DNA from: [Chlorobium] sp. 445
Lineage (GTDB): Bacteria > Bacteroidota > Chlorobiia > Chlorobiales > Thermochlorobacteraceae
Assembly: GCA_002763895.1 (NCBI GenBank)
Contig: NSLH01000019.1
Span: 1 to 50,179 of the forward strand
Direction of reading: 5' to 3'
Length of the DNA: 50,179 bases
The notes beneath the pieces were generated by a model that was given only the letters and a program-made list of their open reading frames with translations, was not told where the DNA came from and made no database searches. Every line of letters begins with the position of its first letter. The stretch's first letter is position 1. Shown one piece after another: positions 10,873 through 46,553 of this stretch. The position numbers were made by a program, and so were the translations under genes.

Positions 10873-13800
10873 ATGAAGGGTCGTGTACTTTTTCTCATAT
10901 CCGTGTTTCTTTTGTCAGCGCAAGTCGTTTTTGCGCAAGAAAAGCCTTTCTACTACTACCATGGCAAAAAAATTGAGCTAAAGCCTTCGGTATCTGAAGT
11001 TTATGTCAAGTTTAGAAAAAATCTCCAAGCGGCTCGGAAGATGGATGCGCTGCGAAACATGCGCCAGCTTACTTTAGCCAAAGATCAATCTCCACTTCTG
11101 CAAGCGCTGCGCTATGAACTTGCTCCAAGTGAGCGCAACGAATCTGGCATGAAAAAGCTCTTAGCAGAGCTCAGAGCAAAGCCAGATGTCGAAGCTGCAT
11201 TTCCAGCTTATATCAGCGAGCTTGGCGATACGCTCTATGTTACGAACGAAGTAATTTACATGCCGAAAGTCAAGGGCGATTCTCGCTTGCAAGGCATGCA
11301 TGCAGAGCACAGTGCTACAGTTGTGGAAACTTTTGATATGGGACCGAACAAAGAGCAAGTACTGGTTCAACTTGCCGATGGAGTTGATCCGATTGTTGCT
11401 GCTCAAAGAATGGTGGAGAGTGGTTTGGTGGAGTTTGCCCAGCCTAATTTCATGACCATCTGCCACACGCATCAAAGCGCTGAGAAGTTCACCCCTCCCA
11501 CCCAGCCTGCGCCAGACCCCGATGAAGAGCGCGCCAGAGAAATCTTGAAAATTGTGCGTGAAGCCAAAAATCCGATGCGCGCAGCACTTCCTATCGGACC
11601 CATTCGCCTGTACTTGACCCCCAATGATCCTCTTTTTACCCAGCAATGGTTTTTACAAAACACGGGACAGACCATCGGTGGACAAGTTGGGGTGATTGGC
11701 GCAGATATCAGCACCGTGAGTGCGTGGGATATTACCACAGGCTCTTCTACAGTTGTAGTTTCCGTATGGGATTCAGGATATGATCTTGCTCACCCTGAAC
11801 TTGCAGGTCAAATCGTTAGCAGTTACGATGCCGCAGGTACGGATGGCAACACAGGTTTTGGTGGTCCTGCTGTACCAACTAACCCCGGGGCAGCAAATGA
11901 AAACCACGGGACACCATGCGCAGGTCTCATTGCGGCACTCACTAACAATAACGCCAGTGTTGCTAGCGTAGGATACAATGTTCGTCTTCATCTTGTTCGA
12001 AACGGCTTTAACTTTACTTCGACTGGTTCCTTTAGCACGACTGATGCCGTTATCGCGCGCTGTGCTGTAGCCACTGTTAACGTGGCTGGTCTAGTTGCGG
12101 TGAGCCAAAGTTGGGGCGGTGGCAGCGCCAATGCCTCGTGGGAAGCCAGTTTTGCCAGTGTGAGAACGAACGCTCGTTCTGGACTCGGTGCGGTCATGCT
12201 CTTCTCAGCTGGCAACGCTGGAACCAATGTTGTCGGATACCCTGCTCGTGCAGCTAACATCATTGCTGTGGGCGCCACAGACAACAGCGATCGCAAAGCC
12301 GGGTTTTCTCAATTTGGCGATTCTCTTGATGTGGTTGCCCCCGGCGTCAATACCCTTACCCTTGATCGTTCAGGTACAGCTGGCTATACTAGTGGAAATG
12401 AAACTTTCTTTGGTGGCACTTCTGCCGCATGTCCAGTTGCCGCTGGTGTCGTGGCTTTAGCGGCATCGGTCAATACTTCTCTTACAGGTGGCCAGCTCGA
12501 GGAAATTTTGCAGCGCTCTTGTGATAAAACTGGAAACTATCTCTACGGCACTGCTACAGGGCGAACACTCGGTCCATGGAATAATCAAATGGGCTACGGC
12601 AGAGTTAATGCCAGACGTGCCGTCCAAATCGCACAAGGCAATCCAACCCTAACCATTACGAACCCAATTCCCGGTAGCGCATGGCAAACAGGTCAGCCTG
12701 CTACAATTACTTGGTTTGTTAGCTCTGGCACCATCACGACCAATATCACAATTGAGCTCTATAAAGGTGGCGTATTTAACTCCACGATTTCATCGAGCGC
12801 GCCTAACACTGGCACTTTTAGCTACACCCCTCCTCTTGCACTTGCTGATGGGAATGATTATCAAATCCGCCTTACCGCTAATTCAGGTACAGTTATAGAG
12901 TTCAGTTCATTCTTTGAAATTTCTGCTTCTCCTTCCTCACCATTTGTCTACACACCCAGTAACACCTTTAACTTGAATACAGGTTATACAGACTTAGGCA
13001 CAAACGGCACAGTGATTACTACCAGTAACTTTGATGATGCAAACTCTGCACCTGTAAATATCGGCTTCAATTTCGACTACAATGGCAGAGTGTATAACCA
13101 ATTTATTTTGAATACTAATGGCTTTATTAAACTTGGCAATACCCAGCCTTCCTCTGCCGCTCTCTTCATCTCAAATCCACAAGACCAAACTGGTACAGGT
13201 GGTGCTATTGCCAGTACGAACCCTGCAGATACTGATATTCTCTCTATTTTCAATCATGACCTACAAGCGGGGACTTCAACTCCTGAGTACCGTGTTCATA
13301 CCACTGGAACTGCACCGAATCGCATCTGCACGATTCAGTTCAAAAATGTGCGTGAAAAACAAACTCCGCCCGGTATCCAGTTCAACAATATGAACTTCCA
13401 AATTCGCTTGCACGAGAACGGCATGATCGAGTTTGTGTATGGTACCTTCACGCAAAGCACAGCAACAGATGCGTTCAGAACGTTTGGTGTAGGCATTAAG
13501 GGGCTTTCGACTAGCGCCACCCAACTGGTTACTTTCCAGAAAGGCTCTACCACGGCGTGGAGCGCCGTTAACGCTGGAAGTGGCGCAAATGTTACCTTTA
13601 ATGTCCGCCGCACTGTGGGACCAGATGTTGGACGCACGTTCCGCTTTGTACCTTCTCGTCCTGCCACACAGCTTGCTATCATCAACCCGCTTGCTCCAAC
13701 AGTCAATAAAATTTTCGCGGTCGTCGCTGAAACCCGCGATGCCTTTAACTTGCCTCAGCCTACATCAGGCGGTACGGTGACACTTGCACTAACCAATGGT

Positions 13801-15633
13801 TCTGGCACGCTAAGCGGCAACTTAACTACAACAGTTAATCCCGGTCAAACACGCATTATCTTTAGAAACTTGACGTATAATGTGGCACAATCGGGGGTGC
13901 AGGTTCAAGCCTCTGGCCTTTCTCTTACGCCCGGGTCTGCAACGTTTACCGTCTCAGCCCTGCCCCCTGAACTGCTTTACGACAGCGGACCTCTTGTTAC
14001 CAATCCTGCCGAAGGCGTTAACTTTGCCGACGCCAGCAGTATCAGCACTGGCCTTAGCTCGTTTGGCTTTCAACACTCTATTTCTTCAGGATTCAGAGTT
14101 GCCGCTCCAATTACTGTGCCACCCGGTCAAGGTTGGAGAGTTGATTCTCTTATCTTCTTTGCTTATCAAACTGGTTCTACCACGACCTCTACCATCAATA
14201 ATGTAAATTTGAGAATTTGGCGAGGCACACCCGGTGCTTCCGGCAGTGAAGTCATCTTCGGCAATACTACAACCAACCGTCTTGCTCAAACGCGATTCTC
14301 GGGCATCTATCGTGTTACCTCATCGACACTCACCAACACCGATCGCCCTATCATGATTCAGAGAGTGCTTCCAAGCACTTCTGCTACGTTAGTTTTAGGT
14401 CCAGGCACCTATTGGCTCGACTGGCAAACTGGCGGTACTTTAGCCTCCGGTCCGTGGGTTCCACCAATTAGCATTGAGGGTCAGCCTTCAACTGGCAACG
14501 CACGCCAATTCGATGGCACAACATGGGCAGATTTGTTAGATAACGGATTTCCCCAGGGCTTACCTTTCCAAGTGTATGGTCAAGTTATCCCCGGCACATC
14601 GGTCACAACTGTAACTCAAATCGCTTCTATACCCACTGGTAACCCTACCGTTTTTGATTTTCCCGACCTCAACTTCACCTTCATCGGTGATGTCACCACA
14701 TCGGGCACTTTGACCGTGAACTACTACCTTGGACCGCCGATTGCAAGCACGCCTCCAGCAAACATTCTTCGCGTGAGTTCCTACTACTGGGATGTTACAA
14801 ACACAGGGGTCGTCTTTACGAATGGTCGCGTGCGTTCTAATATTTCCAGATTGTTAGGCGTTGTCAATCCACCCACACTGCGATGGCTACGCCGCGCCAA
14901 TAGCACGCAGCCTTGGTCTGATCTTGGTGCTGCGATTATCTCTGGTAACCTTGAAAGCACATCTCTCTTTAATTCCTTCTCGGAGTTCTCCATCGGCAGT
15001 GAGACCTTGGACAATCCACTTCCTGTTGAACTGGTGTCTTTCACTGGTGCTGCGACATCACAAGGTGTACGGCTGCAATGGCAAACTGCCTCTGAACTCA
15101 ACAATGCTGGCTTTATGGTGATGCGCACTACCGTCTCACCGAGTGGCGAGACACTCACACCAGCTTCCACTATTGCATCGTATCAATTTTCTAACGAACT
15201 GCGTGGTAAAGGTACAGTTACATCCGCCACAGAATATGCTTTCCTCGATAAAAACGTGGAAGCTGGACAGACTTACCGCTATCAATTGCGTTCAGTGGAT
15301 TTGGACGGTACGATTCATGACTATCCTCAGGTCGTAACGGTAGAAGTGCGTGAAGTTCCGCAGGCAAAAGTCTATGAGTATGCACTGGAGCAAAACTATC
15401 CTAATCCATTTAACCCCAGCACCATCATCCGCTTTACGATGAAAGAAGCTGGTACAGCGACACTTGTGATTACAGACATCTTAGGCAGAACGATTTTAAC
15501 GGAAACCATTCAAGCGCGCACTGGTGAAAATCAATATCGATTTGTTGCTAGTAACTTAGGCACGGGACTTTACTTCTACACGCTGCGTGCGCCCGGTTTC
15601 CAACAGACGCGCAAGATGATGCTAGTGAAGTAA
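10873..15633 (+). CDS. Secreted subtilisin-like serine protease with type IX sorting domain
   Basis: Large exported protease of 1586 residues. A signal peptide (MKGRVLFLISVFLLSAQVVFAQ) is followed by a propeptide-like region. The S8 catalytic domain has Asp300 in VWDSGYDLAHPEL, His345 in NENHGTPCAG and Ser517 in GGTSAACPVAAG. Next, near residue 593, is a domain resembling Kre9/KNH (TITNPIPGSAWQTGQPATI), then long beta-rich regions. The last 80 residues form a T9SS type A sorting domain (ALEQNYPNPFNPSTIIRF, GLYFYTLRAPGF, KMMLVK). It should therefore cross the inner membrane by Sec and the outer membrane by the T9SS, whose PorU/PorV homologues are encoded 7-12 kb downstream. Substrate is unknown. 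A terminator follows. Confidence 0.93.
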   Translation: MKGRVLFLISVFLLSAQVVFAQEKPFYYYHGKKIELKPSVSEVYVKFRKNLQAARKMDALRNMRQLTLAKDQSPLLQALRYELAPSERNESGMKKLLAELRAKPDVEAAFPAYISELGDTLYVTNEVIYMPKVKGDSRLQGMHAEHSATVVETFDMGPNKEQVLVQLADGVDPIVAAQRMVESGLVEFAQPNFMTICHTHQSAEKFTPPTQPAPDPDEERAREILKIVREAKNPMRAALPIGPIRLYLTPNDPLFTQQWFLQNTGQTIGGQVGVIGADISTVSAWDITTGSSTVVVSVWDSGYDLAHPELAGQIVSSYDAAGTDGNTGFGGPAVPTNPGAANENHGTPCAGLIAALTNNNASVASVGYNVRLHLVRNGFNFTSTGSFSTTDAVIARCAVATVNVAGLVAVSQSWGGGSANASWEASFASVRTNARSGLGAVMLFSAGNAGTNVVGYPARAANIIAVGATDNSDRKAGFSQFGDSLDVVAPGVNTLTLDRSGTAGYTSGNETFFGGTSAACPVAAGVVALAASVNTSLTGGQLEEILQRSCDKTGNYLYGTATGRTLGPWNNQMGYGRVNARRAVQIAQGNPTLTITNPIPGSAWQTGQPATITWFVSSGTITTNITIELYKGGVFNSTISSSAPNTGTFSYTPPLALADGNDYQIRLTANSGTVIEFSSFFEISASPSSPFVYTPSNTFNLNTGYTDLGTNGTVITTSNFDDANSAPVNIGFNFDYNGRVYNQFILNTNGFIKLGNTQPSSAALFISNPQDQTGTGGAIASTNPADTDILSIFNHDLQAGTSTPEYRVHTTGTAPNRICTIQFKNVREKQTPPGIQFNNMNFQIRLHENGMIEFVYGTFTQSTATDAFRTFGVGIKGLSTSATQLVTFQKGSTTAWSAVNAGSGANVTFNVRRTVGPDVGRTFRFVPSRPATQLAIINPLAPTVNKIFAVVAETRDAFNLPQPTSGGTVTLALTNGSGTLSGNLTTTVNPGQTRIIFRNLTYNVAQSGVQVQASGLSLTPGSATFTVSALPPELLYDSGPLVTNPAEGVNFADASSISTGLSSFGFQHSISSGFRVAAPITVPPGQGWRVDSLIFFAYQTGSTTTSTINNVNLRIWRGTPGASGSEVIFGNTTTNRLAQTRFSGIYRVTSSTLTNTDRPIMIQRVLPSTSATLVLGPGTYWLDWQTGGTLASGPWVPPISIEGQPSTGNARQFDGTTWADLLDNGFPQGLPFQVYGQVIPGTSVTTVTQIASIPTGNPTVFDFPDLNFTFIGDVTTSGTLTVNYYLGPPIASTPPANILRVSSYYWDVTNTGVVFTNGRVRSNISRLLGVVNPPTLRWLRRANSTQPWSDLGAAIISGNLESTSLFNSFSEFSIGSETLDNPLPVELVSFTGAATSQGVRLQWQTASELNNAGFMVMRTTVSPSGETLTPASTIASYQFSNELRGKGTVTSATEYAFLDKNVEAGQTYRYQLRSVDLDGTIHDYPQVVTVEVREVPQAKVYEYALEQNYPNPFNPSTIIRFTMKEAGTATLVITDILGRTILTETIQARTGENQYRFVASNLGTGLYFYTLRAPGFQQTRKMMLVK

Positions 15634-16319: not shown

Positions 16320-18590
16320 TTACTTTTGCATACCGATTGCCTCCTCAAGGGCATGAAAATACACTTTGTTGAGTTCGTTTAGGCTTGCTTCAAACACTTT
16401 TTGATGGTTGATTGAAATCTCAACCCGCTCTTTTTTCGTCTCCCCAATTTTTTGACAGATGAGCCCAAAAGATTTTGCTAGCGTCTCCAGCGCATGTTGT
16501 TTTTCTGCGCTAACACTAATCACCACTCGACCTTGCGCTTCTGAAAATAGTGTGGCTTGAATCGCTGTATCTGACGGTGCTAGCTCAAGATTTACACTAA
16601 ACCCAACTTGCACATCTTGATTGAGAATAGCGCTTTCAAGCAGCGCAATAGCCAGCCCGCCATCTGAGACATCATGCGCTGATTGCAACAACTTTTCTTT
16701 TGCTGCTGCTACCAAAAACTCTTGCAATGCTTTCTCTTCATCCAAGTCGCATGGAGGCGCATCAATCCCAAGTTCGCCATAGAAGTATGATAGGAACTCA
16801 GAACCGTTCAAGTCTTGGCTAAGTTTGCCGAGAAGATAGATACTCTCACCTGCTTGTTTGAAGGTTGCGGTTACGATATGGTCTGTATGCTCAATGAGTC
16901 CAATCATTCCAATCGTGGGCGTTGGATAGATAGCGACAGTTTCACCTCCAATCGTAGATTCATTGTAGAAACTCACGTTGCCACCTGTTACGGGTGTATC
17001 AAACTTTCGGCATGCTTCACCCATGCCCGCTACTGCCTCTTTGAATTGGAAATAAATGTCCGGTTTGTAAGGGTTGCCAAAGTTTAAGCAGTTCGTAATT
17101 GCAAGTGGTTTTGCGCCAGAGCATGCGATGTTGCGTGCACATTCTGAGACTGCAATTTGTGCGCCTTTGCGTGGATGCAAATAGACATAGCGCGCATTGC
17201 AATCAACTTTCAGAGCTAAGGCTTTCGTTGTGCCTTTAATGCGCACCACAGCTGCATCTGACACGCCTGCACTTACCACTGTGTTGGTGCGCACTGATGT
17301 ATCGTATTGTTCATACACCCAATGCTTGCTGGCGATGTTAGGTCGTGAGAGCATCGCCAAAATTTCTTTTTGAAAATCAATTTCCGTGTCTGGTTTCAAT
17401 TTCGGGAATGTGGTATTTGGCTTTTTCTCGATTGCTTCACGGTAGTAGACTGGTGCGCCGCCGCCTAATACCAAGGCTGGCGCAGGAATTTCTGCTACAA
17501 TCTCTCCGTTCCAACGCACACGCAGCATGCCATCGCTTGTAACGCGACCAATCACAACAGCACTCAAATCCCACTTTGAAAAAATATCAATTACCTGTTG
17601 TTCATAGCCTTTCTTAGCCACAATGAGCATTCGTTCCTGCGATTCAGACAGCATAATTTCGTAAGGGGTCATATGTTTTTCGCGTGTTGGTACGCGCTCA
17701 AGCTCGAGCTCCATTCCACCCGCCCCTGTTTTTTCTATTGCGCGTGCTGCCATCTCTGCTGATGAACAGGTCAGACCAGCTGCTCCCATGTCTTGAATGC
17801 CCACAACATAGCCGCTTTCAATAGCTTCTAATGTGGCTTCAAGCAGCAGTTTTTCTGTGAAGGGATCGCCTACTTGCACATTTGGACGTTTGTCTTCAGA
17901 ATTTTCGGAGAGTTCTTCTGATGCGAAGGTTGCCCCATGAATGCCATCGCGCCCTGTCGCAGAGCCTACAATCAAGACCGGATTGCCTTCACCACTTGCT
18001 ATTGCTCGTGCAACTTTATGATGCTCGACAATTCCAACAGACATGGCATTAACTAAGGGGTTATTTTGGTAACATGTCTCGAAATAGATTTCTCCGCCGA
18101 CGGTCGCAACGCCAAATGAATTGCCATAGTCACCAATGCCACGCACGACACCATCCATCAAATAGCGTACGCGCTCATCCTGCAGGTTTCCGAAACGCAG
18201 GGAGTTAAGTGTGGCAATGGGTCGCGCGCCCATCGTGAAGATATCGCGGTGTATGCCACCGACACCTGTTGCAGCACCTTGATACGGCTCGACAGCTGAG
18301 GGATGATTATGCGATTCAATTTTGAACGCAACGCCTAGTCCATCGCCAATATCGACCAGACCTGCGTTTTCTTCGCCTGCCTTAGCCAGCAACCGTGAGC
18401 CACTTCTTGGCAGTGTTTTCAGCACCGCAATTGAGTTTTTGTAGCTGCAGTGCTCCGACCACATCACCGAGAAAATGCCCAGTTCCGTGTAAGTCGGTGT
18501 GCGACCAAGAATGCGCAACATGGCGTGATACTCTTCTTCCAGCAGCCCATGCTGCTTTGCCAGTTCAAGTGTTACCGTTGGCTCTTGCAT
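16320..18590 (-). CDS. purL: Phosphoribosylformylglycinamidine synthase subunit PurL
   Basis: Catalyses the ATP-dependent amidation of FGAR to FGAM in purine synthesis; the small form works with PurS and PurQ. The product is about 756 residues, the PurSQL-type size. Motifs include [76 protein letters not shown] and [19 protein letters not shown] place the start at Met 18590 ([15 protein letters not shown]), because the upstream open frame runs through the terminator hairpin of the preceding gene. purS and purQ are not in the window. Confidence 0.95.
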
Positions 18591-18664: not shown

Positions 18665-18685
18665 CGGGTTTCTTGCTCAACTCTT

Positions 18686-19906
18686 TTACTTCTCGTTTGG
18701 CTTCTTTTCTTCAGGTTTCGTTTCTTCCGGTTTCTTCTCTTCTTCTTTCTTCTGCGGTTCGCCTTCTTTCAAGATTGAGCGCAGCTGTTCCAAATTCCTT
18801 TCAATATCTTGGCGGCGACGACGCAATTCCTCAATTTTTCTTGCCGTGGATTCTTTGTCATCACCGATGTCTTCGAGTTTGCGCAGGATAATATCTGAGC
18901 CTTGTGAGCCTGTGGTAAAGTCAATCAAGCTTGGGTCTGCTGCACCACTCAAAATCGGCAGGATATTGAACTGCACGCCGAAGAGTACGCGCCATTCTGT
19001 GTAGTTTGTAGGCGCATTTGGTGGACGACGTACGATTCCAAACGCACCGTATTGCGTTTTGTCTTCTCTGCCAGTCAGTTGGTAGTCGAAGCCGAGTGTG
19101 AGTGCAAGGAAATCCACAGGTTTTAAGCGTGCACCTGCGGAGATAAATGCCATGGCTTCTCGCGTGTACGCCTGAACGGGTGGCTCAGAGATAAATACCC
19201 ATCCCCAGATTTCAAGCATCAGGTCAACTGATGTTGTCGGATATTTTAAGCCAAGTGAGTATGTAATCGCATTGCTATTGGCTTCCACTTCAAAGTTTCG
19301 CCCTGGCGTATTGGAGATATTCTTACCAGCATCAAAGTAGTTGTAGAGCCCAAGGTTGAGATTGACGTTGAACGATTCTCTTGGAAAGAGGTTATCGGAA
19401 TAGTAAGACAGTAGCACATTGATACCGACTTCGGGGCCACCTGCTGAGTACGGGTTACCAAATTGATTCCAGCGACTTGCCAGCGGAAGCATAAAGGTGG
19501 CCATACCGCCGACATAGACATAGTCATTTGCGATGCCAAAGGAAGCTACTTTTGCCGTTAAAAATATGCGCTCAAATACATTTGATGCAGCATCTTGATG
19601 ATGAATGTCGCTGTAGATAAGCGGATTGAGTGCTACCAAGATATTATTTGTGAAGGCGTAGTCGAGGTGAATCGAGTTGGTTACGATAGAATGCGCTACA
19701 AGATTTCCTAACTGTCCTGCATAGGCTCCTGCAACTGTACTAAAATCAAAATGCGAAAAGAAGGTAAGGCTGCCCTGCTTAGGATTAAGTGCCTCTTGAG
19801 TGCGAATGAGGCGACTACTTGCTGTAAAAGCGTACTGTGCCCTCGTCTCCGCAGCGATTCCTCCTAAAAGAACAGTGAGCAGAAGTAGGTAAAGCGTTTT
19901 TCTCAT
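18686..19906 (-). CDS. Outer-membrane beta-barrel protein with coiled-coil, charged tail
   Basis: I do not recognise a named family. The 406-residue product starts with a signal peptide ([24 protein letters not shown]). About 270 residues of alternating amphipathic strands follow, such as [12 protein letters not shown] and [15 protein letters not shown], as in outer-membrane barrels. The last 90 residues are different: a helical segment [20 protein letters not shown] that should form a coiled coil, then a Lys/Glu/Pro repeat tail ([16 protein letters not shown]). Such a tail could reach the periplasm or peptidoglycan. It is the last gene after porU, porV, the FN3 lipoprotein and the SLBB gene, so a role in T9SS assembly or surface anchoring is plausible but unproven. 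Confidence 0.7.
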
Positions 19907-19944
19907 TGTATTTATCCTCCGATTGATCGTCTATGGTTTCCAGT

Positions 19945-20475
19945 TTAGTTTCTTGCAAGTTCGCGGTTCAGGATGACGATGAGGAATATAGCATTCACAA
20001 TGCCAAATATAGCATTTGTTACGGTAATAATGGTATTCAACACACTAATTGGACCGCCGGGCACAATCACCGTATCACCTCGTAGCAGTGCTGGAAAATT
20101 TTGTTCCCCTGTTTCAATGAACTTGTCTATATCGACTCGCACCACTTTCTCCACTACTGCGCTGTCCACCCGAGCATATCGTACAATGCGAATATCATCG
20201 AGTTTTGCTGTTGGGGCTGGTCCTCCCGCAATTGAGAGTAAGGATACAAGGTCAGTATTGTAGGGCACATAGTATTTTCCTGGACTGCGCACTTGACCCC
20301 AAAGATTTACATCAATTAAGATCCCTTGTCCTTGACCAAAAAAATATGCCGACGGCGCACTACTTGGGCTTTGAGGAGTCTCACCTTGCGGTGTTGTTCC
20401 AAATACTTGGGCTTCTGAAACACTTTGTGCGAAAATTACACAAAGTAGGACGACAAAGCAAACTTTTTTTCGCAT
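19945..20475 (-). CDS. SLBB-domain exported protein
   Basis: A 176-residue protein with a signal peptide (MRKKVCFVVLLCVIFAQSVSEAQ) and one SLBB domain (LIDVNLWGQVRSPGKYYVPYNTDLVSLLSIAGGP), the beta-grasp module of polysaccharide-export outer-membrane proteins such as Wza. RGDTVIVPGG closes the domain. A C-terminal hydrophobic helix (VTNAIFGIVNAIFLIVIL) may be membrane-inserted, as in Wza-type proteins. It lacks the N-terminal Poly_export domain, and no capsule genes are near. It sits between the FN3 lipoprotein and the barrel gene in the porU-porV operon. I infer a periplasmic or outer-membrane ring-like partner of that locus. Confidence 0.75.
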   Translation of the reverse strand: MRKKVCFVVLLCVIFAQSVSEAQVFGTTPQGETPQSPSSAPSAYFFGQGQGILIDVNLWGQVRSPGKYYVPYNTDLVSLLSIAGGPAPTAKLDDIRIVRYARVDSAVVEKVVRVDIDKFIETGEQNFPALLRGDTVIVPGGPISVLNTIITVTNAIFGIVNAIFLIVILNRELARN

Positions 20476-20505
20476 TTCGGCAAATTTTATGGTTTTTTAA
20501 CGGAC

Positions 20506-21345
20506 CTAATTTATGCTCACGCGAAATCCCAAAAGTTCTGATGCGGTGCCATAGCGTCGGTCAATATCTTCTGGGAAGGCTTGAACCTGCCAGCGATATT
20601 GTACGCCACTCTCCAAGCGCTTAAAAACCCGCAAGCCATTTGGAATCCGCCTTACTGGACTTGGCGCTTGAAACACTTGACCAAAATTAATGCTCACTGT
20701 ATCCCGATCACGGAAACTTGAGCCATCATACAAAATAGCCACGCAGTCTTCTTCAAAGAAGGTATCAAATCCTCGGAACTCATAGAGCTTGAGCACATAG
20801 AATCCGCTTGCGAATGAGGGTTTGCCCCACTCAAAGTAGATGGTTGTATCACTGCGTGAGAACACCAGTTGCCCAATCGGTGTTCGTGGTTCCACACGCG
20901 TTGCCAAGCGAAATGATTCTGGCACTGAACGCTCACTTCGTGCTCCCCTGCGCGTGTAGGCTTCGATCTGATAGTAGTATTGTACATCTGGTACAGCTGC
21001 TGCATCAATAAACACCGTGTCGGGCAGCCCAATTGCTTCTTGCGAGCCCAGTGGAATCTCACGCAGCAGTCGAAAGTTAATCGGCAGCGTGGTATCCTGT
21101 GCGACTTCACTGGTTCTAAAGACACGATATCCTGCAAGGTCTCTTTCGGTATTTCTAAACCATTCTAATCGAATTGCATTTTGTCCCGGCACTGGGCGAA
21201 TGCCGCGCTCTACTTTTGCCGTATCAGATGACTTTGGCACGAACTGCGGTCGACGCGGTGCTGGGGGCTCTGGGTCAGGCGGACAGCCCAGCAAGAGCAG
21301 ACTCATTGCAACAGCCCCAATAAGAAAAATCCCTGTTCTCGTCAT
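20506..21345 (-). CDS. Lipoprotein with fibronectin type III-like domains
   Basis: A 279-residue lipoprotein. The lipobox is LLLGC, near residue 21, followed by a Pro-rich linker (PPDPEPPAPRRPQF). Two FN3-like segments follow: NAIRLEWFRNTERDLAGYRVFRTSE with VQYYYQIEAYTRRGARS, and a second with TIYFEWGKPSFASGFYVLKLYE ending in QYRWQVQAFPED. It should be anchored in the outer membrane and bind another envelope protein or glycan. It lies 9 bases after the porV stop, so it is almost certainly in the same operon. No specific function is known to me. Confidence 0.75.
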   Translation of the reverse strand: MTRTGIFLIGAVAMSLLLLGCPPDPEPPAPRRPQFVPKSSDTAKVERGIRPVPGQNAIRLEWFRNTERDLAGYRVFRTSEVAQDTTLPINFRLLREIPLGSQEAIGLPDTVFIDAAAVPDVQYYYQIEAYTRRGARSERSVPESFRLATRVEPRTPIGQLVFSRSDTTIYFEWGKPSFASGFYVLKLYEFRGFDTFFEEDCVAILYDGSSFRDRDTVSINFGQVFQAPSPVRRIPNGLRVFKRLESGVQYRWQVQAFPEDIDRRYGTASELLGFRVSIN

Positions 21346-21354
21346 CGCTTACAG

Positions 21355-22407
21355 CTAGAAAAACTCTGCTAAGTTTACAGTTAGCCCAATTCGGTGCGGG
21401 GCGCCTAATTCGCTCGATTGATACGCATAGTCAATGTAGAACGCACGAAAGAGAAAGATGCCTGCACCGAGTGTTAGATTACGGTCATAACTGCCGATGC
21501 GTAGGGCGAGCAAATCACGGAAACGGTATTCTAATCCTAGCGAGGTCAGTCCTTCATACTTTGTGTCGCGTGTGATGAGCAGAATCACCGAACTGTATAG
21601 AAATTCTAGTGGCTGTTTGTACGAGGCGTGAATCAGAAATGAGCGTGGAATAGCTGCGCGCGTTCTCAGGTCTGTATTCCATGCAATCGTGGTATTGAAC
21701 AGATCTTTGACCGTCAAGCCAAAGACGAGATCACCGAAGATTTGTCTGCCAATGAAGTCTCCGAGTTTAAACTTGATGAGTGTGCCGATATCGACGCCCA
21801 CACCATTGCCCGAAAAGCTCACACGTCGATCGCCGCCAAAACTTTGCGACACATACTTGAAGGTTACGCCCAGTGGGATTTCAATCGGCAAGCGAAAATA
21901 TTGCCAACCAAAATCGACGGTATTGATCAGTGTCTTGGCAATCGAGATGAATAGCGCATCATCATTGTTTGAGAACGTTGCGCCACCATTGTCTAAAATA
22001 CCCGCTCGAATTTGTCGGAAGTAGTCGCCTCGTGAGCCTGTTGGTTCATCGGTCAAGGGGATATTTGCAACACTGTTGCGAATCCAATTAAATGAGGCAC
22101 CGATACCTGCACCTAAATCTTGAGAGTAGCCAATGTGGAAGTAATTTGAGAGTGGATTGCCAATTGAGCCAAACTGATTGGAATACATCGTTGAGATATA
22201 CTTGCCCTTGATGAGTGCAAGCGCAGACGGGTTCCAAAAGAACGCAGAGCCATCTTTGTTATCGATTGGCGTAAACTGTCCGCCCACACCTAAAGCGCGT
22301 ACGCCCAGCGGGATATCCAAAAAAGCTGCAGCATATCGCTCTTCCTGCGCTACTGCATAGCTTGACATGAGTAACGCCAGACTCATTAGCAGAAATTGCT
22401 TTTTCAT
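21355..22407 (-). CDS. porV: PorV-family type IX secretion outer-membrane protein
   Basis: A 350-residue outer-membrane barrel of the PorV/PorQ group. It has a signal peptide (MKKQFLLMSLALLMSSYAVAQ) and the family opening FLDIPLGVRALGVGGQ with AFFWNPSALALIKG. Amphipathic strands continue to a final aromatic residue (IGLTVNLAEFF), as in barrels inserted by BamA. In known T9SS, PorV collects cargo from the translocon and hands it to the sortase PorU. Here the gene starts 18 bases after porU, the pairing expected for PorV rather than PorQ. Assignment to PorV over PorQ rests mainly on this neighbour. Confidence 0.82.
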   Translation of the reverse strand: MKKQFLLMSLALLMSSYAVAQEERYAAAFLDIPLGVRALGVGGQFTPIDNKDGSAFFWNPSALALIKGKYISTMYSNQFGSIGNPLSNYFHIGYSQDLGAGIGASFNWIRNSVANIPLTDEPTGSRGDYFRQIRAGILDNGGATFSNNDDALFISIAKTLINTVDFGWQYFRLPIEIPLGVTFKYVSQSFGGDRRVSFSGNGVGVDIGTLIKFKLGDFIGRQIFGDLVFGLTVKDLFNTTIAWNTDLRTRAAIPRSFLIHASYKQPLEFLYSSVILLITRDTKYEGLTSLGLEYRFRDLLALRIGSYDRNLTLGAGIFLFRAFYIDYAYQSSELGAPHRIGLTVNLAEFF

Positions 22408-22425
22408 CTTGATTTACTTTAAGGC

Positions 22426-25400
22426 TTAGCGCAGGCGCGCGATTTTGATAATCTCTTCTAAGACTCGCCCTCTTTGAATCACACGTATTTTGGCGTAGTA
22501 CACTCCATTTGCTACGCTGTTGCCACGCTCATCTAAGCCTGACCATTCTATCACACGCCCCCCTACCTGCGTGAAAGTCAAATTTGCATTGTTCTCAAAA
22601 CCGGGCGGCGCTACACCAGGCTGACGAAAGGTATTGATGAGCCGACCTGAAGCAGTATAGATTTTGATTTCAAACTCATCGGCAGGCTCCTGACCAATAA
22701 TTTCATAGCCAATAAATGTGCGGTCTTCAAATGGATTGGGGTAAGCGCCATAGACGCGCAAACGAAAGTTTTCTTCAACGACAAAGCGCAAGGTGTCGCT
22801 GCGACGCACATTCAGATTTGCATCATAGAAAATAAATGCTACTTCTTGTTGTCCGTTCGGAAATTCATCGTCGTAAGTAATTCCTACGCTATTAGCATTT
22901 GGAGAAGAGATTGGAATATTGAGTTTCTCTTGCACCGCAGCAGAGCTATCACCATTGCGAATGACACGAATGAATTGACGATCTAAATAAATCCCGTTTT
23001 GATCTTGCAAGACCGCCACGATTCTTGGACGACGTGGAGCAAACCCGCCGGGCGCATATTCCTGACCTTCAATGCCGAGCGTAATCCGCGGCTGTGTTTG
23101 GTCGTTGGTATGCATCACAGCAAAGGTACCAAAGCGGTTGTAGTCGATTGCTACCGTATTGACATCTGGTTTCGACTGAATTGGAATGCGTAGCCAGCGC
23201 TCGATGTCTTCAGAAAAGAAATAGCCATTGACAAATGTGCGGCGTGTGGCAAAGTCTCTAGGATTCAGACGCATAGTAAGACGCAGCGGTCGCGCAAGTG
23301 TTATTGCTGAATCTACAGGTGTGATGCGATAGGCTAAACGTGTTGTGGCGGTGTCAGATTGTGAAGCCAGTCGCACAAATTCGTTGTCAGGCTGTCCGAC
23401 TTTTACGGGATTTTCAATACGCTCTACTTTGAGCGCTCCACTTCTCGAAAAGGTCTCTGGTTCATAGCTTAGCGTGCAATTGTTATCGATTGGCACACTT
23501 GCGCCTGTGGTGTTTTGTACTTGCACAAGGTTGTAAGTGATGGTGCGCTGATTAGAGAGATTATTTCTGACATCAACATCTGGTGCGATAGTTGTATCAC
23601 TAATAACTTGCACAGCAATGTTGTAGCTTTGCAGCAGCCTGAAGTCTGCAGGAACCGGCACTGTTGCACGCACTTTGCCATTTGCTGGAATTTGCACATT
23701 TGTCGTGCCAATCACTCGCCGTACTGCTCTCAGCGTTGGGGGAATGTTCTGAAAGAGAGAATTATTGACAGAGTTTTCGTAGAAAATCACACGTGTTGGA
23801 CTTGCGACATTGCTCCAGTTGTAGACCTCTGCGCCAATCGTGATACGATTATCCTCGAGATAAAAATCAATTGTAGGATTGTCGTAGAACTGATTCAATC
23901 CTGCGCGGGCTTGTTGCACAGCTGCTACATCTGCTCGTTCGCCTACGACACTTTGCACGTTCTCGGAACGACTTTCTTCGCTGCCTGCGCGTACCACGGC
24001 TGAATAGGTTACAGTATGACCGCGCCGCATCGCTGTGGCTGGAATGCTGCTTGTTGTTACAAACACACCGGGTGCACTTGAGTCTGTTGGCAAATTCGCC
24101 TCAAAGACCGTCTCGCTTGTTTGCGTCGCACTATTGACACGTGTTACAGTTGCGCGTACCGTTACACTTTGCACCTGCTGACGCGCATCAACGCGCACTG
24201 TAAAATTCACCGCTCGATTTTCGCTTGTACGAATGTCGCTGGATGGTACCACACTGCGAATAAACGGTGCAGAATTGCTAAAGCGAACAACACCGCTCAC
24301 ATCTGCTCTTGCATCTTCAGAAATGATATGCGCTTTGAACTGTCCTCCACCACGCGAGAAATTGAGAATGTTTGTTCTTGTAATCGCTGGTGGTTGTGGT
24401 AGGATAATCACAAGACTGTCGGCAAACTGACCGCCAATTACTTGCCCGATTCTGCCGTTTCTGACTTGAAAGAGAATTGTACTTGTGGTTACTTCCAAAT
24501 TATTTTGGTCTGTGATTCTGCCAAATCCGTTGCCGTTTGTAATCCCGTTTACCGTTCCACGAATTACCAAGCGTCCCCCAACGTTTGTCAGATGCGTTGG
24601 CAGTTCCCAACGAATTGCGGGCTCTCCAGTGGGTGTGCTTCTGCGTGGCAGCGCTAAGCGCAATGCCGGATCGCCAAACACACCGTATTGATACATCATG
24701 GTTGGAGCTTGCAGAGTGTAGATATCGCGATACTGCAAGTAATAACGAATTTTGCCACGAAAGAGCATATCGCCGATCGAGAGATCTTGAAATCGCTCAT
24801 TGAGCAGAAATTCGTAAATCGATTGAGCCATTAAAAAATCATTGATAAACCAACCAAGCCCTGCTGATGCAATCATACCGATGCACCCTCGCTCCGGCGA
24901 TAAGATGAGCTTTTCAGTTAGCGTAATAGGACTATTGACGAAAGTTCCACGTACGCTTGAAAGATCGTCGAAGGCACCGACAAAACAGGTCATGCTGGTA
25001 ATGAATGGCAAGCGCGTACCATTGCGCAAGCGATCGACGGCTTCGCGTGTTAGCACCTGACTATCTCCCCAGATACCTCCGCCACCGTGTCCCATAAAAT
25101 TCACAACCAACGCCCCAGTTTGATTGAGGGTATTGATGAGCTGATCTTGACCTCCACGATATTTATCAAGTGGCGCTGTGGCATCCAGACGGTTACGTCC
25201 TGCTGCAGTGTGCAAGCGATCGACAAACAAGGTTCGGTCAATGTATCCATCGATGAGCTGATCGGTCTGCACCACTTTATCTACCAATGTACCATCAGCA
25301 ATAGAGCCCCTACCGCTTTCTGCTTCGCCTGCAATAAGCAAAATACGGTTGCGCCATTCACCTAAGGTTTGCTGTTGCTCGTAGGTAATGAGTTTCTGCA

Positions 25401-27944
25401 AGTAAGCCTGCAGATCATCTTGATTTTGTGCAGGTATGCGTGCAATTTGCAAATCAGGCACAAGGTCTAATTGTCCCGAGGCATCAATACCATCAATCAT
25501 CGCAAACCAAGCATCAGAAGCCGTTGCGCCAAAAATGTAGGTTTGCACATGCATCGTGGGCACATCAGTTGGAGCGATCTTGCCAAACACTGCATCGCCA
25601 ATTAGCAGCACATATGTCGGCGATTCACGCCATTCTCGATAAGCATAACTCAAAAACTCCCTTATTGCATATGGACTTTTGATACCATCATTAAACTCAT
25701 CGTAGATATTATCTACTGTCGTTACCAGCACTCGATCGGGCTCACGCAAAGCTCGCAGACGGGCTTCTCGATTTTCCTTGTAGGCGCGTATTGGACTTAG
25801 CAGATTGTTTGCGTCTTTTTCGGTAAGAAATGCGCGTGAGGTAATGATGATGAAGTTGTAGGCATTATTTCTGTCACGCAATCTCACACTTGGCTCAAAG
25901 AGATTTGCAGGCGTTACTTTTTCAATGCGCAGTGGTAGCAGTTTCTTTGCATTTGTTATGCCAATATAGCGCACGTCTGCTGGGCTTAGCACTTCATCTT
26001 GAAAAATGGCGCGGAACTCAAATTTTCCTGTTCTCTCACCACGTTCATCAATGATTTCATACTGCTCGACTGTAAAATTGCCTAAGCGCCCTGTACCTTG
26101 TTTGTAGATTTCAATATCAGGCGTCGTAAACCCTGAGATTACAAACTGATAGCGTCCCGGTCTTGCCTCTGGCGGCGTTGTAAAGACAATTTCATTTTCT
26201 ACAGCACGATACAAGCGACGATAAGTGACCTCCAGCCAGTTGAAGTAAAACAGAGGCGCCGACACACTTGGGTTGGCTTCGCCGCTCCCCACCCGTGCAG
26301 CAGACACCCCACCAAGTAATCGGTGCGCTAACGGTGAGAGCCCTGAACGAATGATAGCTGCAGGTTGATTTGTTCGTCCATCGCCCCACTCGGCTCTCAT
26401 GACTTGTATGAAATCCACTTCCAAGCTAAAGAAGATATTGGCTATAAATTGTGGGTTGCGCCCATTTGCACTGCTGATACCATGCAAAGCTGCACGCAAA
26501 ATGATGGAATCGGTCGTATTGTTCGTCTGTGGTGCTGGAATAGAGATAGGTAATGTCGTGCCGCGGTCTGTTGCCACTTGTGCCCAGAAGCGCTTATCTC
26601 CTGCATCGCTGTGATTGCGTGTGCGTCGGTAACCCGGAGAGTTGAAAACATCATGGACAAGTGCAAATCGCTCTGATAAGAGATCGTTCTCAAAGTGCAG
26701 GGTCGAGCGAAACGACTGATTGCGCAAGTTAATCACACCGCTAATCCCCCGCGGCTCTGCTGGAATCTCGACCAAGCGTAGCCCTCGATTGCTCGGTGTG
26801 AGAGTCTGTTCCCAGTAGAAGTAGTAGACATTCTCATCGGTGTAGGGATCATTATACATCTCTGGGCGATTCGGGTCTGAAAATGCTAAGCGATGCGCTT
26901 CACCAATAAATTCCACATAGTCATCTCGATTGAAGCGACCATCCTGCTCACCGCGGACATAGATGGGCACTTCGCGTCCTTTGTTGAAGAGTCTGAAGGT
27001 GCGTGGATCAGCGGAAAAAAATCTCGTGGGAGTTCTGCATCTTGAAACTCAAAAAAGCCAATGCGATACACCCCATCTTTGTCGACAATGAAGCGATACT
27101 TTGGCACTACTGGCAACCGCCCGAAGACACTCTGCTGCACGCCCATCGCCTCTGAAAAGGACATCAATTTGCCACCTATGGTTTTCTCAAGTGGCGTGTA
27201 GGGACTGCGTCGGCGTGGCGACTGACGCATCAATTCAGCTTCATCAAGATCAACCTTAAATTCTTCTGGCGTTGATTCTTGTGTATTCAGTGTGCACTCA
27301 ATTGTAACTTTCTGAGCATAGCGCAGTGTTTTAGTCGCTGGCACATAAATGTATGGTGAGATTGTCAGGCTTGTCAGCGGTGTGCCGCGCATAGAGCCTG
27401 CGTAGAACCATTTAAGTTTTTCTTTTGGGAAGTTTTCCTTCTCTGAAATTTTCAATTCTGCCTTTACTTGCCCGCGCCATTCATCTCGTGCACCGATTGG
27501 CACATCATTTAGCTTCTCAGGATGAGCTTTCAGCACGACATTTTGCAGCACACCGACACCCTCTTCCGCTACAATCCTTGCCGATTGCACAGCCGCTTGC
27601 AAAACATAATGATAAGATGGGATGCGGTAGAGTTGATTCATCATCAGATGGTTAGTTGTCAGCGAGGCAATCTCCTGCTCGACATTGTCTTCGCTTACCT
27701 GTATTTCTCTCACGAATGGCACAGCAAATTCTAATACAAGCCGCACTTTGCTGTTATCTACCTTTGCCACAGACACCACTGAGGAGGGTTCAAGCGATAT
27801 CTTTTCGCTCTTGCTCGAGGGTGTTATGTGCTGCGCCAGCAGTCTTTGAGGAAAAAGAGTAAGAAGCAACCATAAAGCGGTACTTGCAGCCAACACATGC
27901 CGCAGATGAATATGCGTCATTAAAGTTTTGATCTTGTTAGTCAT
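22426..27944 (-). CDS. porU: Type IX secretion sortase PorU (C25 cysteine peptidase), frameshifted
   Basis: Cell-surface sortase that removes the C-terminal sorting domain of T9SS cargo and attaches the protein to the surface. After repair of one frameshift the protein is about 1839 residues. The N-terminus has a signal peptide (HVLAASTALWLLLTLFPQRLLAQ). The gingipain-like C25 domain has the catalytic His in NFMGHGGGGIWG (near residue 950) and Cys in SMTCFVGAFDD (near 985). The end has a CTD-like fold (VYGAYPNPFEDRTFIGYEI). The break is a T7 run (plus-strand A run 27015-27021); one more T joins ELPRDFF to SADPRTFRLFNKGREVPIY. The start may instead be Met 27920. It lies 119 bases after secA and heads the envelope operon. 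Confidence 0.9.
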
Positions 27945-28063
27945 GCAGTCTGCTTTTGTGCAGTGATGAGGCGGTATGCATGAATATGAGTGTTTTTTAG
28001 CTGTTGCAAAAATATAGGCAGCAGTGCAATCTATCAAGTTCTCAATTTGTCCCCTTGTTTGCT

Positions 28064-31000
28064 TTACCTTGCCGCTACAGCTTTGCCATGACAGTTCTTG
28101 TATTTTTTGCCACTGCCACAAGGACATGGGTCATTTCGTCCGGGTGTTTTCTCTACTCGGATTGGCTGTTGCTTCGGCACTTCTTCTTGCTCTATATCAG
28201 CGTTTGCTTGGCTCTGCACTGCGCTAGAACTATACGCGCTTTGTGCCTCTGCATGAACAGCTTTAAGTCGACTGCGCTGCACACGACGTGGCTCCATGAC
28301 TGGCTGTGCGACAGGATACAGCTTGAAGGCAACAGATAGCGTTTGTGCAGCAATCTCATTCAGCATCTGCACAAAGAGCTCGAAGGCTTCTTTCTTATAT
28401 TCCAGCAGCGGATCTTTCTGACCGTAGGCGCGTAGGTTAATTCCCTCTTTAAGGTCGTCAATGTCGCGCAAGTGCTCACGCCACTTTTCATCAATGACAC
28501 TTAGCACCGCAAAGCGCTCAATGCGTCCCATCATCTCATTGCCAAGTTGCTCTTCCTTGCGTTTGTAGAATTCGCTTGCGGTGTGATAGACTAACTCCTT
28601 TACACCTTCTTTGCCAAGGGCGGCAAATTTGTCTCGCGTCAGTTCAATCGGGTACACTGAGCTCTCGCAGCACTTGCTCCTTTAAGCCTTCAGCGTCATA
28701 ATCGCCAACATATTTTTCTGCGATTTGCTCGGCATAAGTATCTAAGAGATCGAAGATTTCCAGGCGAAGACGTTCTTTGTAGAGCGCATCACGACGGCGC
28801 GCATAGATGATCTCACGCTGTTGGTTCATCACATTATCGTATTCCAGCAGTCGCTTTCTGACTCCGAAGTTCTGTTCTTCGACTCGGCGCTGAGCACGCT
28901 CAATAGATTTCGTTACCATGGGATGCTCAATCACATCGCCCTCTTGATGCCCTAATCTATCCATGATTGAAGCGATGCGCTCTGAGCCAAAAAGACGCAT
29001 CAGGTCATCTTCGAGCGACACATAAAATTGCGAGATACCCGGGTCGCCCTGCCTGCCTGCGCGTCCACGCAACTGCCTATCAATGCGGCGTGCTTCGTGT
29101 CGTTCTGTACCCAGAATGAACAGCCCACCGAGTTCTTTGACACCCGGACCGAGCTTGATATCCGTGCCACGCCCCGCCATGTTTGTCGCAATCGTTACCG
29201 CTCCCTTTTGTCCTGCTTGTGCAATAATTTCCGCTTCGCGTTGATGCTGCTTGGCATTTAGCACATTATGCGGAATCTTCCGCATCTTGAGAAACCGTGA
29301 TAGCGTCTCAGAGACTTCCACGCTTGTTGTACCCACCAGCACAGGTTGCCCTTTCTTGCGCAACTCTTCAATTTTTGCAATCACAGCGTTGTATTTCTCA
29401 CGCTTGGTCTTAAAGACTAAATCTTCTCGATCTTCTCGGATGACTTTTTTGTGCGTTGGAATGACCACAACATCGAGCTTATAGATTTCAAAAAACTCTT
29501 GTGCTTCGGTTTCCGCTGTGCCTGTCATTCCAGCAAGTTTTTTGTAGAGCCGAAAGTAATTTTGCAGCGTAATGGTCGCCATCGTTTGCGTCTCGCCTTC
29601 GATCTTGACCCCTTCCTTGGCTTCGATGGCTTGGTGAAGCCCGTCGCTATAGCGGCGTCCAGTCAAAATGCGTCCTGTAAATTCATCGACAATCAGCACC
29701 TTGCCATCTTGCACGACATATTCATCATCGCGTTCGTAGAGCGAGTAGGCGCGCAAGAGTTGGGAGACATTGTGAATGCGTTCCGATTTCTCAGCAAACA
29801 CTCTATAAAGTTCGTCTTTCTTTTCTTGTTTTTGCGCCTCTGAAAGATTTGGATCATTTTGAATTTTTGCGATTTCCGTGCCCACATCAGGCAGCACAAA
29901 GAAGTCATGGTCTTGATTAGCATCAGTAATGAGCAGGCGCCCCTTTTCAGTCAAATCAATTTGATGGAATCGCTCGTCTATAGAGTAATAAAGTTCATCA
30001 TCAACTTCATGCATGCGCCGGGCGTTGTCGCGCAGAAACTCGTTTTCGACCATCTGCATCAGGCGAGCATTTGCGCCTTCGCCAATGAGTTTGATGAATT
30101 TTTTGTTCTTTGGCTGACCGCGTTTGGCACGCAAGAGCCCAAGCCCTGCCTTAAACTCCCAATCTTTATCAATCTTATCTTTTTCGGTAAGCAGCTTTTC
30201 GACTTCGCTTAAAATTTTCGCCACAAGGTTCTGCTGCGCTCGAACAAGCCGCTCGACCTTTGGTTTGAGCTCTATAAATTTACTCGTATCGGATTGTGGG
30301 ACGGGACCAGAGATAATCAGTGGCGTACGCGCTTCATCGATGAGTACAGAGTCGACTTCATCGACAATAGCATAGTTAAACCCACGTTGAACAACCTCTT
30401 CTTTGTCGGTTGCCATATTGTCGCGCAGGTAGTCGAAGCCAAACTCGTTGTTGGTGCCAAAGGTTACATCAGCGGCGTAGCTTTGTCGGCGTTCTGCTGA
30501 GGTCATATCTGAGAGAATGACCCCGACTTTGAGATTATGAAATTCATAAATCGGTCCCATCCATTCACGGTCGCGTTTGGCAAGGTAGTCGTTGACAGTA
30601 ACAATGTGCACGCCGCGTCCTGTCAGCGCATTGAGAAAGGCTGGCAGCGTTGCAACCAGCGTTTTGCCTTCGCCCGTCGCCATTTCCGCAATTTTACCTT
30701 CATGCAGCACAATACCGCCAATCAGTTGCACATCGTATGGAATCATGTCCCACTTAATCGTCGTGCCGCCTGCAACCCACTCTTTGCCAACTAGCCTGCG
30801 GCAGGTATCCTTGACAATTGCAAATGCTTCGGGAAGAATCTCGTTGAGAATTTCTTCAGTGGCGTTGTGCAGTTCTTTCTCAAGCGACTCGATTTTCTCT
30901 TTGATATGTTGTGCTTCCTCAAAGGTCAGATCGAGATTGCTCAGTTTTTCCTTCTCAGCACTTAGTTCTTCTTCGATTTCTGCCGTGTAGTCTTTGATGC

Positions 31001-31154
31001 GAGCTTTGAGCTCTTCAGTTTTAGCACGCAGTTCATCATCGCTCAGCTTCTGAAATTCCTCGTAGTAGCTATTGATCTCCTCGACAATCGGCATCAGACG
31101 CTTGACATCCTTGTCATGCTTCGTTCCAAATACTTTTTCCAAAAATTTCAGCAT
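28064..31154 (-). CDS. secA: Preprotein translocase ATPase SecA, frameshifted
   Basis: Motor that drives unfolded preproteins through SecYEG. The long N-terminal piece holds the DEAD motor motifs [32 protein letters not shown], and the second RecA half with [12 protein letters not shown] and [14 protein letters not shown]. It breaks at VLRELSVPD-stop. The next frame gives [22 protein letters not shown] and the C-terminal zinc motif [17 protein letters not shown]. Removing one C from the CCC run near 28650-28652 makes one protein of about 1029 residues, the usual Chlorobi/Bacteroidetes size. A broken essential secA is not credible, so sequence error is likely. Confidence 0.95.
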
Positions 31155-38495: not shown

Positions 38496-38542
38496 TATCA
38501 ATTTTGCTACTTTGCACACTTAGTTGTTTCAAAATTACTACG

Positions 38543-46321: not shown

Positions 46322-46553
46322 TTGGGTTTAGGTCGTATATTTAGGCAAGTGCACAGTTACAGATAATACTTTGCATGTTGCCTTCTGCGTTCTTGACTGC
46401 GCTGCTGACACACTTGTTGATTTGACTAATCTAAAATATCTGAGCGTTTCATCAAAATCGCTTAACTATGAAATAGTGTCGGACAGGCAACTTTCACTTG
46501 CATGGGTGCGTAAATCAAGCACTGCTTCACTATACGTTCAACACAACCGTCAA

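Follow-up and report, generated by a model that had tools for sequence, protein, structure and literature searches.

A conserved gene block joining a third clade of PorU-like C25 sortases to PorV-like and OPX-like SLBB proteins

The window analyzed here is a stretch of 50,179 nucleotides, contig C19 (NSLH01000019.1) of the 2.8-Mb draft genome of [Chlorobium] sp. 445, which we take to be a hot-spring bacterium related to the green sulfur bacteria. Its minus strand carries a block of five genes. These encode a PorU-like sortase paralogue of the C25 family of ∼1,840 amino acids, hereafter the window type, with an interrupted reading frame (positions 22426 to 27944); a PorV-like protein, putatively of the PorV/PorQ family (21355 to 22407); an FN3 lipoprotein with an LLLGC lipobox (20506 to 21345); a secreted SLBB protein with a single C-terminal hydrophobic helix (19945 to 20475); and a predicted 12-stranded outer membrane barrel with a presumably periplasmic C-terminal coiled-coil helix and a variable Lys/Glu/Pro tail (18686 to 19906). 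In the list of open reading frames, the successive gaps between these genes are 18, 9, 30, and 38 bases, which bears out the sequence-only reading of this DNA as five genes on one strand, 9 to 38 bases apart. That reading also placed a single terminator at the end of the block. Indeed, inspection of the sequence and a terminator scan located an intrinsic-terminator-like stem-loop at positions 18665 to 18635 of the minus strand, a 12-pair stem followed by the T tail TTTATTTT, between the stop codon of the barrel gene and the likely purL start at position 18590. Given that the window contains 11 terminator-like sites, with 11.0 expected from shuffled sequences, this terminator is credible because of its placement and stem length and not because of the site count.

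On the same strand, the block is followed by purL (16320 to 18590) and directly preceded by a frameshifted secA (28064 to 31154, in open reading frames 28644 to 31154 and 28064 to 28657). Because secA adjoins the block, the transcription unit may start there rather than at the PorU-like gene. The four intact genes of the block are under purifying selection, with dN/dS values of 0.03 to 0.12 in the cases where dS was not saturated. Elsewhere in the window, domain matches confirmed the two previously noted cargo proteins of the type IX secretion system (T9SS), an S8 protease (10873 to 15633, plus strand) and an esterase (36975 to 38519, minus strand), each with a Por_Secre_tail domain.

The two fragments of the PorU-like gene encode the Propeptide_C25 domain (PF08126, 25.8 bits; upstream fragment) and the C25 domain (PF01364, 258 bits; downstream fragment). 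The catalytic His and Cys residues are retained in all 38 aligned C25 proteins, the window type among them, which places these sortases in the PorU family in the wide sense, as C25 proteins with both catalytic residues. Window-type proteins score only 165 to 332 bits (the window protein itself, 165 to 240 bits) against the canonical PorU model NF033707, whose cut-off is 420 bits. The same genome encodes a canonical PorU of 1,373 amino acids on contig C40 (5393 to 8782), which scores 943 bits. One canonical PorU was detected in each of the 40 T9SS-containing genomes tested, most of which carry further, larger C25 proteins. The PorU2 model NF052324 (cut-off, 450 bits) likewise gives window-type proteins just 155 to 256 bits. 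A PorU2-like paralogue encoded on contig C13 of this genome scores 431 bits and is just one member of its clade, in which 431 bits is the maximum.

A phylogeny built on 447 columns of the C25 domain, with 16 window-type proteins, 6 canonical PorU proteins, and 16 other large proteins, resolved three clades, with support values of 98/98 for the window type, 100/100 for canonical PorU, and 97/95 for the PorU2-like proteins, and the window-type proteins fell outside the canonical PorU clade. Judged from its sequence, the C25 protein of the window is a paralogue from a third supported sortase clade and not the canonical PorU. Each of the 16 window-type sortases in the tree has an SLBB gene beside or near its PorV-like gene. 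“PorU” annotations in this phylum thus span at least three paralogue clades.

The PorU2-like C25 paralogues occur in polysaccharide gene clusters (loci L086, L182, L184 to L190, and L193 to L195). In a set of 46 of their neighbors, picked partly by eye and giving counts rather than an enrichment test, 8 matched WecG/TagA/CpsF and 9 matched Glycos_transf_1. The frequent adjacency of PorU2-like genes to a WecG/TagA/CpsF glycosyltransferase gene suggests that these sortases are paired with particular glycans.

The PorV-like protein had no Pfam match at E values of up to 1, PF19572 included, and scored 20.7 bits against the canonical PorV model NF033710 (cut-off, 250 bits). For NF033709, the model of the PorV/PorQ family with a cut-off of 90 bits, it scored 66.6 bits and its relatives scored 67.7 to 91.5 bits. 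A profile of the PorV-like protein matched Flavobacterium johnsoniae PorV (PDB entry 6h3i) with an E value of 3.7e-6. From these sequence comparisons, the shuttle of the window is best described as a probable PorV/PorQ-family protein that is not canonical PorV. Canonical PorU adjoins a PF19572-matching PorV in five loci, and in the genome studied here no canonical PorV gene was seen in the 16-kb region surrounding the PorU gene on C40. Another PorV-family paralogue, encoded on contig C1 and thus outside the block, scores best to PorV2. In three loci (L177, L183, and L191), canonical porV/porU genes lie beside a gene for a protein of 1,015 to 1,028 amino acids, comparable in size to the NCBIfam T9SS-dependent M6-like inactivated metalloprotease.

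The fourth gene had been described as an SLBB protein with a C-terminal membrane helix, and this description holds. The protein matches the SLBB domain PF10531 with 27.7 bits (cut-off, 27 bits). Behind its signal peptide, a short linker modeled with low confidence leads to a single SLBB domain and a C-terminal helix of 34 residues (positions 142 to 175; pLDDT, 71). Its best match in a structure search was WzaB of Myxococcus, a class-3 OPX protein (E value, 5.6e-6), followed by Wza, and a sequence profile also retrieved WzaB (7.5e-6). OPX proteins by definition require an N-terminal Poly_export domain (PMC9603273). The SLBB protein contains the other OPX hallmark, at least one SLBB domain. However, neither it nor its relatives matched Poly_export (PF02563). 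Because this domain defines the family, the SLBB protein is, in terms of its sequence, OPX-like and not a member of the OPX family. The C-terminal helix is uniformly hydrophobic, with a moment of 0.17 to 0.44, and ends in basic residues. Given these properties, it is most likely an inner membrane anchor that would leave the SLBB domain in the periplasm. For the same reasons, an outer membrane-spanning role like that of Wza_C is unlikely.

A profile search of the phylum separated SLBB homologs into two tiers, a strong one (E values of 1e-54 or lower) from 19 genomes, in each of which the gene is linked to a PorV-like gene, and a second one, mostly with E values of 1e-10 to 1e-34. Members of both tiers have the same length, the SLBB domain, and the helix, often with an aromatic/aliphatic-Arg-Asp motif ahead of it. 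At 18 second-tier loci and two loci from Chlorobiaceae, the SLBB gene mostly lies beside a gene for a co-polymerase-like protein of the Wzz/GNVR/tyrosine-kinase type with 470 to 800 amino acids, Wzz/GNVR domains being confirmed in two of these neighbors, and at none of the 20 loci is it beside PorU or PorV. In the SLBB tree, the labeled groups cluster far better than in shuffles, and a single clade of sortase-linked SLBB proteins was not rejected (p-AU, 0.305). The sequence-only reading listed the three proteins encoded after the PorV-like gene as no known T9SS parts. They nevertheless have some relatives, in that the SLBB protein belongs with the SLBB proteins of polysaccharide export.

The third gene does encode an FN3 lipoprotein, as previously noted. 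Its Cys21 is invariant across 16 homologs, and a profile of the family matched the FN3 domains of titin and fibronectin chains. About 12 of the 16 homologs carry acidic residues a few positions after this Cys, a pattern that resembles the surface export signals of Bacteroidota lipoproteins. This lipoprotein probably lies at the cell surface, adjacent to the sortase.

As for the fifth gene, its description as a barrel with a coiled coil has stood, but only some genera have the Lys/Glu/Pro tail. The model of this protein (mean pLDDT of 64, i.e., moderate confidence; the AlphaFold models of the block proteins are all single chains of moderate confidence) contains 12 predicted strands followed by a 46-residue helix (positions 336 to 381). 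Because the number of strands is even, both ends of the barrel can be predicted to face the periplasm. The coiled-coil helix is conserved as far as the distant family f5; the tail is absent in families f3 and f5 and was therefore rejected as an essential part of the protein. A structure search returned generic barrels alone (FapF, COG4313, and NanC), with low TM-scores, and a search of PDB sequences with the barrel profile found nothing. The barrel gene is tandemly duplicated in three genomes (L081, L082, and L083). A distant barrel paralogue that has no coiled-coil tail adjoins an MCE/MlaD-like protein of ∼297 amino acids in several genomes, including the one studied here (L084, contig C1, 135445 to 136521; L114, 7298 to 8599; L115, 7775 to 9085; L117, 7586 to 8941; and L119, 6816 to 8291).

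The distribution of the block was analyzed in 98 genomes of the class, of which 86 are from Chlorobiaceae (family f2), and in a phylum sample of 392 genomes. The five-gene order is kept in 15 genomes, 11 from three families of the class (f1, f3, and f4) and 4 from f5, which links the three extra genes to a PorU-like/PorV-like pair, the outcome sought by the neighborhood search proposed earlier. Two of the 11 (G095 and G097) have their window-type sortase genes cut by contig ends. In a further f1 genome (G092, 84% complete), the C25 and PorV-family proteins are all more distant paralogues. The PorU-like protein, the PorV-like protein, the FN3 lipoprotein, and the barrel were not found in any of the 86 Chlorobiaceae genomes. 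In the class, secA lies upstream of the block wherever the contig allows, and this place is kept in nearly all relatives; purL follows the block in the f1 and f3 genomes, with one exception. The four f5 genomes, recovered with the barrel profile, have the same order starting from secA, with glnB replacing purL downstream.

A four-gene order, in which the block ends after the SLBB gene, is found in two further families. The neighborhoods of PorV-like genes in family f22 include the FN3 and SLBB genes in two genomes and only the SLBB gene in one, all of them without the barrel; family f35 has the FN3 and SLBB genes but neither the barrel nor secA; and in family f24 the PorV-like and SLBB genes are ∼2 kb apart. 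From these loci it follows that the SLBB and FN3 genes form the wider core and the barrel is an addition. The earlier suggestion of a Chlorobi-specific complex does not survive the presence of the module in f5, f22, and f35.

SprA/Sov scored over its cut-off in every module-bearing genome and was absent from the three Chlorobiaceae genomes tested. The sequence-only reading tied its proposal to linkage with porU/porV and to genomes that have T9SS. Both hold for the module; the wider SLBB family, however, extends to genomes that lack T9SS, lying beside Wzz-type genes in Chlorobiaceae. In Porphyromonas gingivalis, PorZ delivers A-LPS to PorU. PorZ was found in all module-bearing genomes, over its cut-off in all but two, and the new genes were accordingly rejected as a replacement for it. 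The chemistry of P. gingivalis PorU with A-LPS has been described, and A-LPS accumulates in the periplasm of its T9SS mutants (PMC8545088). A 2016 survey found T9SS in Bacteroidetes only (PMC4793230). Among the freely available papers searched, none contained both “type IX secretion” and “SLBB” and none was devoted to PorU2/PorV2.

The block can be compared with four known arrangements. Similarly to the PorU-PorV-PorQ-PorZ attachment complex of P. gingivalis, it places a C25 sortase with both catalytic residues beside a PorV-like barrel in genomes that also encode SprA/Sov and PorZ, but its sortase of ∼1,840 amino acids lies outside the canonical PorU clade, its shuttle is not canonical PorV, and it includes three extra proteins. 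NCBIfam PorU2 and PorV2 (NF052324 and NF052325), a putative second sortase and shuttle, also combine a non-canonical C25 protein with a PorV-family protein, and in the same genomes. However, the window type forms another clade, well below the PorU2 cut-off, the PorU2-like proteins are encoded in glycan clusters with no adjoining SLBB gene, and the PorV2-like protein of this genome is encoded away from the block, on C1. The class-3 OPX proteins of Myxococcus with their partner barrels (WzaX/S/B and WzpX-type porins) share with the block a short SLBB protein, WzaB being the best match by both fold and sequence, and, in part of the lineages, an adjoining barrel gene. In contrast to them, the SLBB protein of the window lacks Poly_export and has the additional C-terminal hydrophobic helix, its barrel is 12-stranded rather than 18-stranded, and the neighboring gene is that of a protein sortase and not of a co-polymerase. 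Finally, the short SLBB proteins beside Wzc/Wzz in Bacteroidota and Chlorobiaceae are alike in length, domain, and helix, to the point that one profile detects both groups, and differ in having polysaccharide co-polymerase genes as neighbors and, at the 20 loci read, never PorU/PorV.

A conserved gene module around the third sortase clade is therefore well supported. In the reading that we favor, with a probability of roughly 0.45, it is a dedicated T9SS sortase/shuttle module for cargo attachment, separate from canonical PorU and PorV, with partners that would connect it with an anchoring glycan. The PorU-like paralogue would be bound to the surface through the PorV-like barrel, where, given its homology to C25/PorU proteins and its intact catalytic His and Cys, it would cut the C-terminal domain from some of the T9SS cargo proteins and attach these proteins to the anchor. 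The secreted SLBB protein, whose C-terminal helix most likely holds it in the inner membrane and leaves the SLBB domain in the periplasm, would probably handle a glycan in the periplasm, and this glycan would be the anchor, as polysaccharide export is the function of the closest relatives of this protein. The FN3 lipoprotein would probably sit at the surface next to the sortase. The barrel, present in part of the lineages, could provide an extra outer membrane partner with its coiled coil reaching into the periplasm. Attachment of part of the cargo to a glycan that the SLBB protein helps present is suggested by the families of its parts, the ties of the PorU2-like proteins to glycan clusters, and the PorU/A-LPS chemistry (PMC8545088). 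The block hints at a separate route for fixing proteins to the cell surface. A sortase clade with an OPX-like SLBB gene in its own operon would allow the connection of protein sorting with glycan traffic to be examined in a cultivated organism. Several observations weigh against this glycan role. PorZ is present in all module genomes, so the need for an extra part for glycan delivery is not obvious, Poly_export is missing from the SLBB protein, and the block contains no co-polymerase or glycosyltransferase gene. Also against the favored reading are the absence of the barrel from two families, of FN3 from one genome, and of a visible sortase from G257.

Some of the same observations would fit a different role, possible but somewhat less probable, in which the three extra proteins only scaffold the PorU-like/PorV-like pair, structurally or in recognition, and protein rather than glycan is the ligand of the SLBB domain. 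The scaffold could be a tether to the periplasm or inner membrane or could select cargo. The conservation of the barrel coiled coil across both groups, a C-terminal SLBB helix with sufficient hydrophobicity to be an ordinary transmembrane segment, the lack of glycan genes in the block, and the PorZ already in place are all consistent with it. However, SLBB homologs outside the module almost all adjoin polysaccharide co-polymerase genes, which argues against it.

The cargo attachment reading can be taken further, to a third class of T9SS sortase with its own glycan line, in which protein sorting and polysaccharide export would be physically coupled, which we consider unlikely. Here, the SLBB protein, anchored in the inner membrane, would pass the glycan anchor through the periplasm to the barrel and the surface FN3 lipoprotein, and the PorU-like enzyme would join it to cargo there.

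The first two genes had initially been taken for porU and porV themselves, a view in line with a C25 domain and a PorV-like barrel encoded in one operon. A canonical PorU/PorV pair with accessory parts peculiar to Chlorobi is nonetheless very improbable, as the same genome has its canonical PorU on C40, the window type is a separate C25 clade, the PorV-like protein has no match to PF19572, and the module extends beyond Chlorobiia.

Nor is the first gene a single open one. It is split into open reading frames 26886 to 28127 and 22426 to 26970, in different frames, with the change at a run of seven T residues (27015 to 27021, minus strand). A gene that is truly broken, or phase-variable through this run, with the module switched off in this organism, would explain the position of the frameshift and the runs of 6 or 7 T at the equivalent spot in some relatives. 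We regard this as most unlikely, because the relatives read through this spot in one frame and the gene is intact in all those with a complete copy. Moreover, secA and the DUF5916 gene (46371 to 48805) of the window and the PorU2-like C25 gene on C13 (L086) are split as well, so that the frameshift is probably an assembly error; the assembly appears to contain indel errors in these three genes.

Synteny between secA and purL that is conserved without any functional relation among the genes would agree with the conservation of these two neighbors but can hardly explain a block that stays together with other downstream neighbors (glnB or a sufS-like gene) and where secA is not adjacent (L132), and that is wholly absent from Chlorobiaceae, which have no PorU-like and PorV-like genes. 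In the genome G257 (L133, 8970 to 13037), the PorV-like and SLBB genes are kept, no window-type sortase was found, and the PorV-like gene is preceded by a gene for a lipoprotein of 145 amino acids that resembles the sortase C terminus and is perhaps its remnant.
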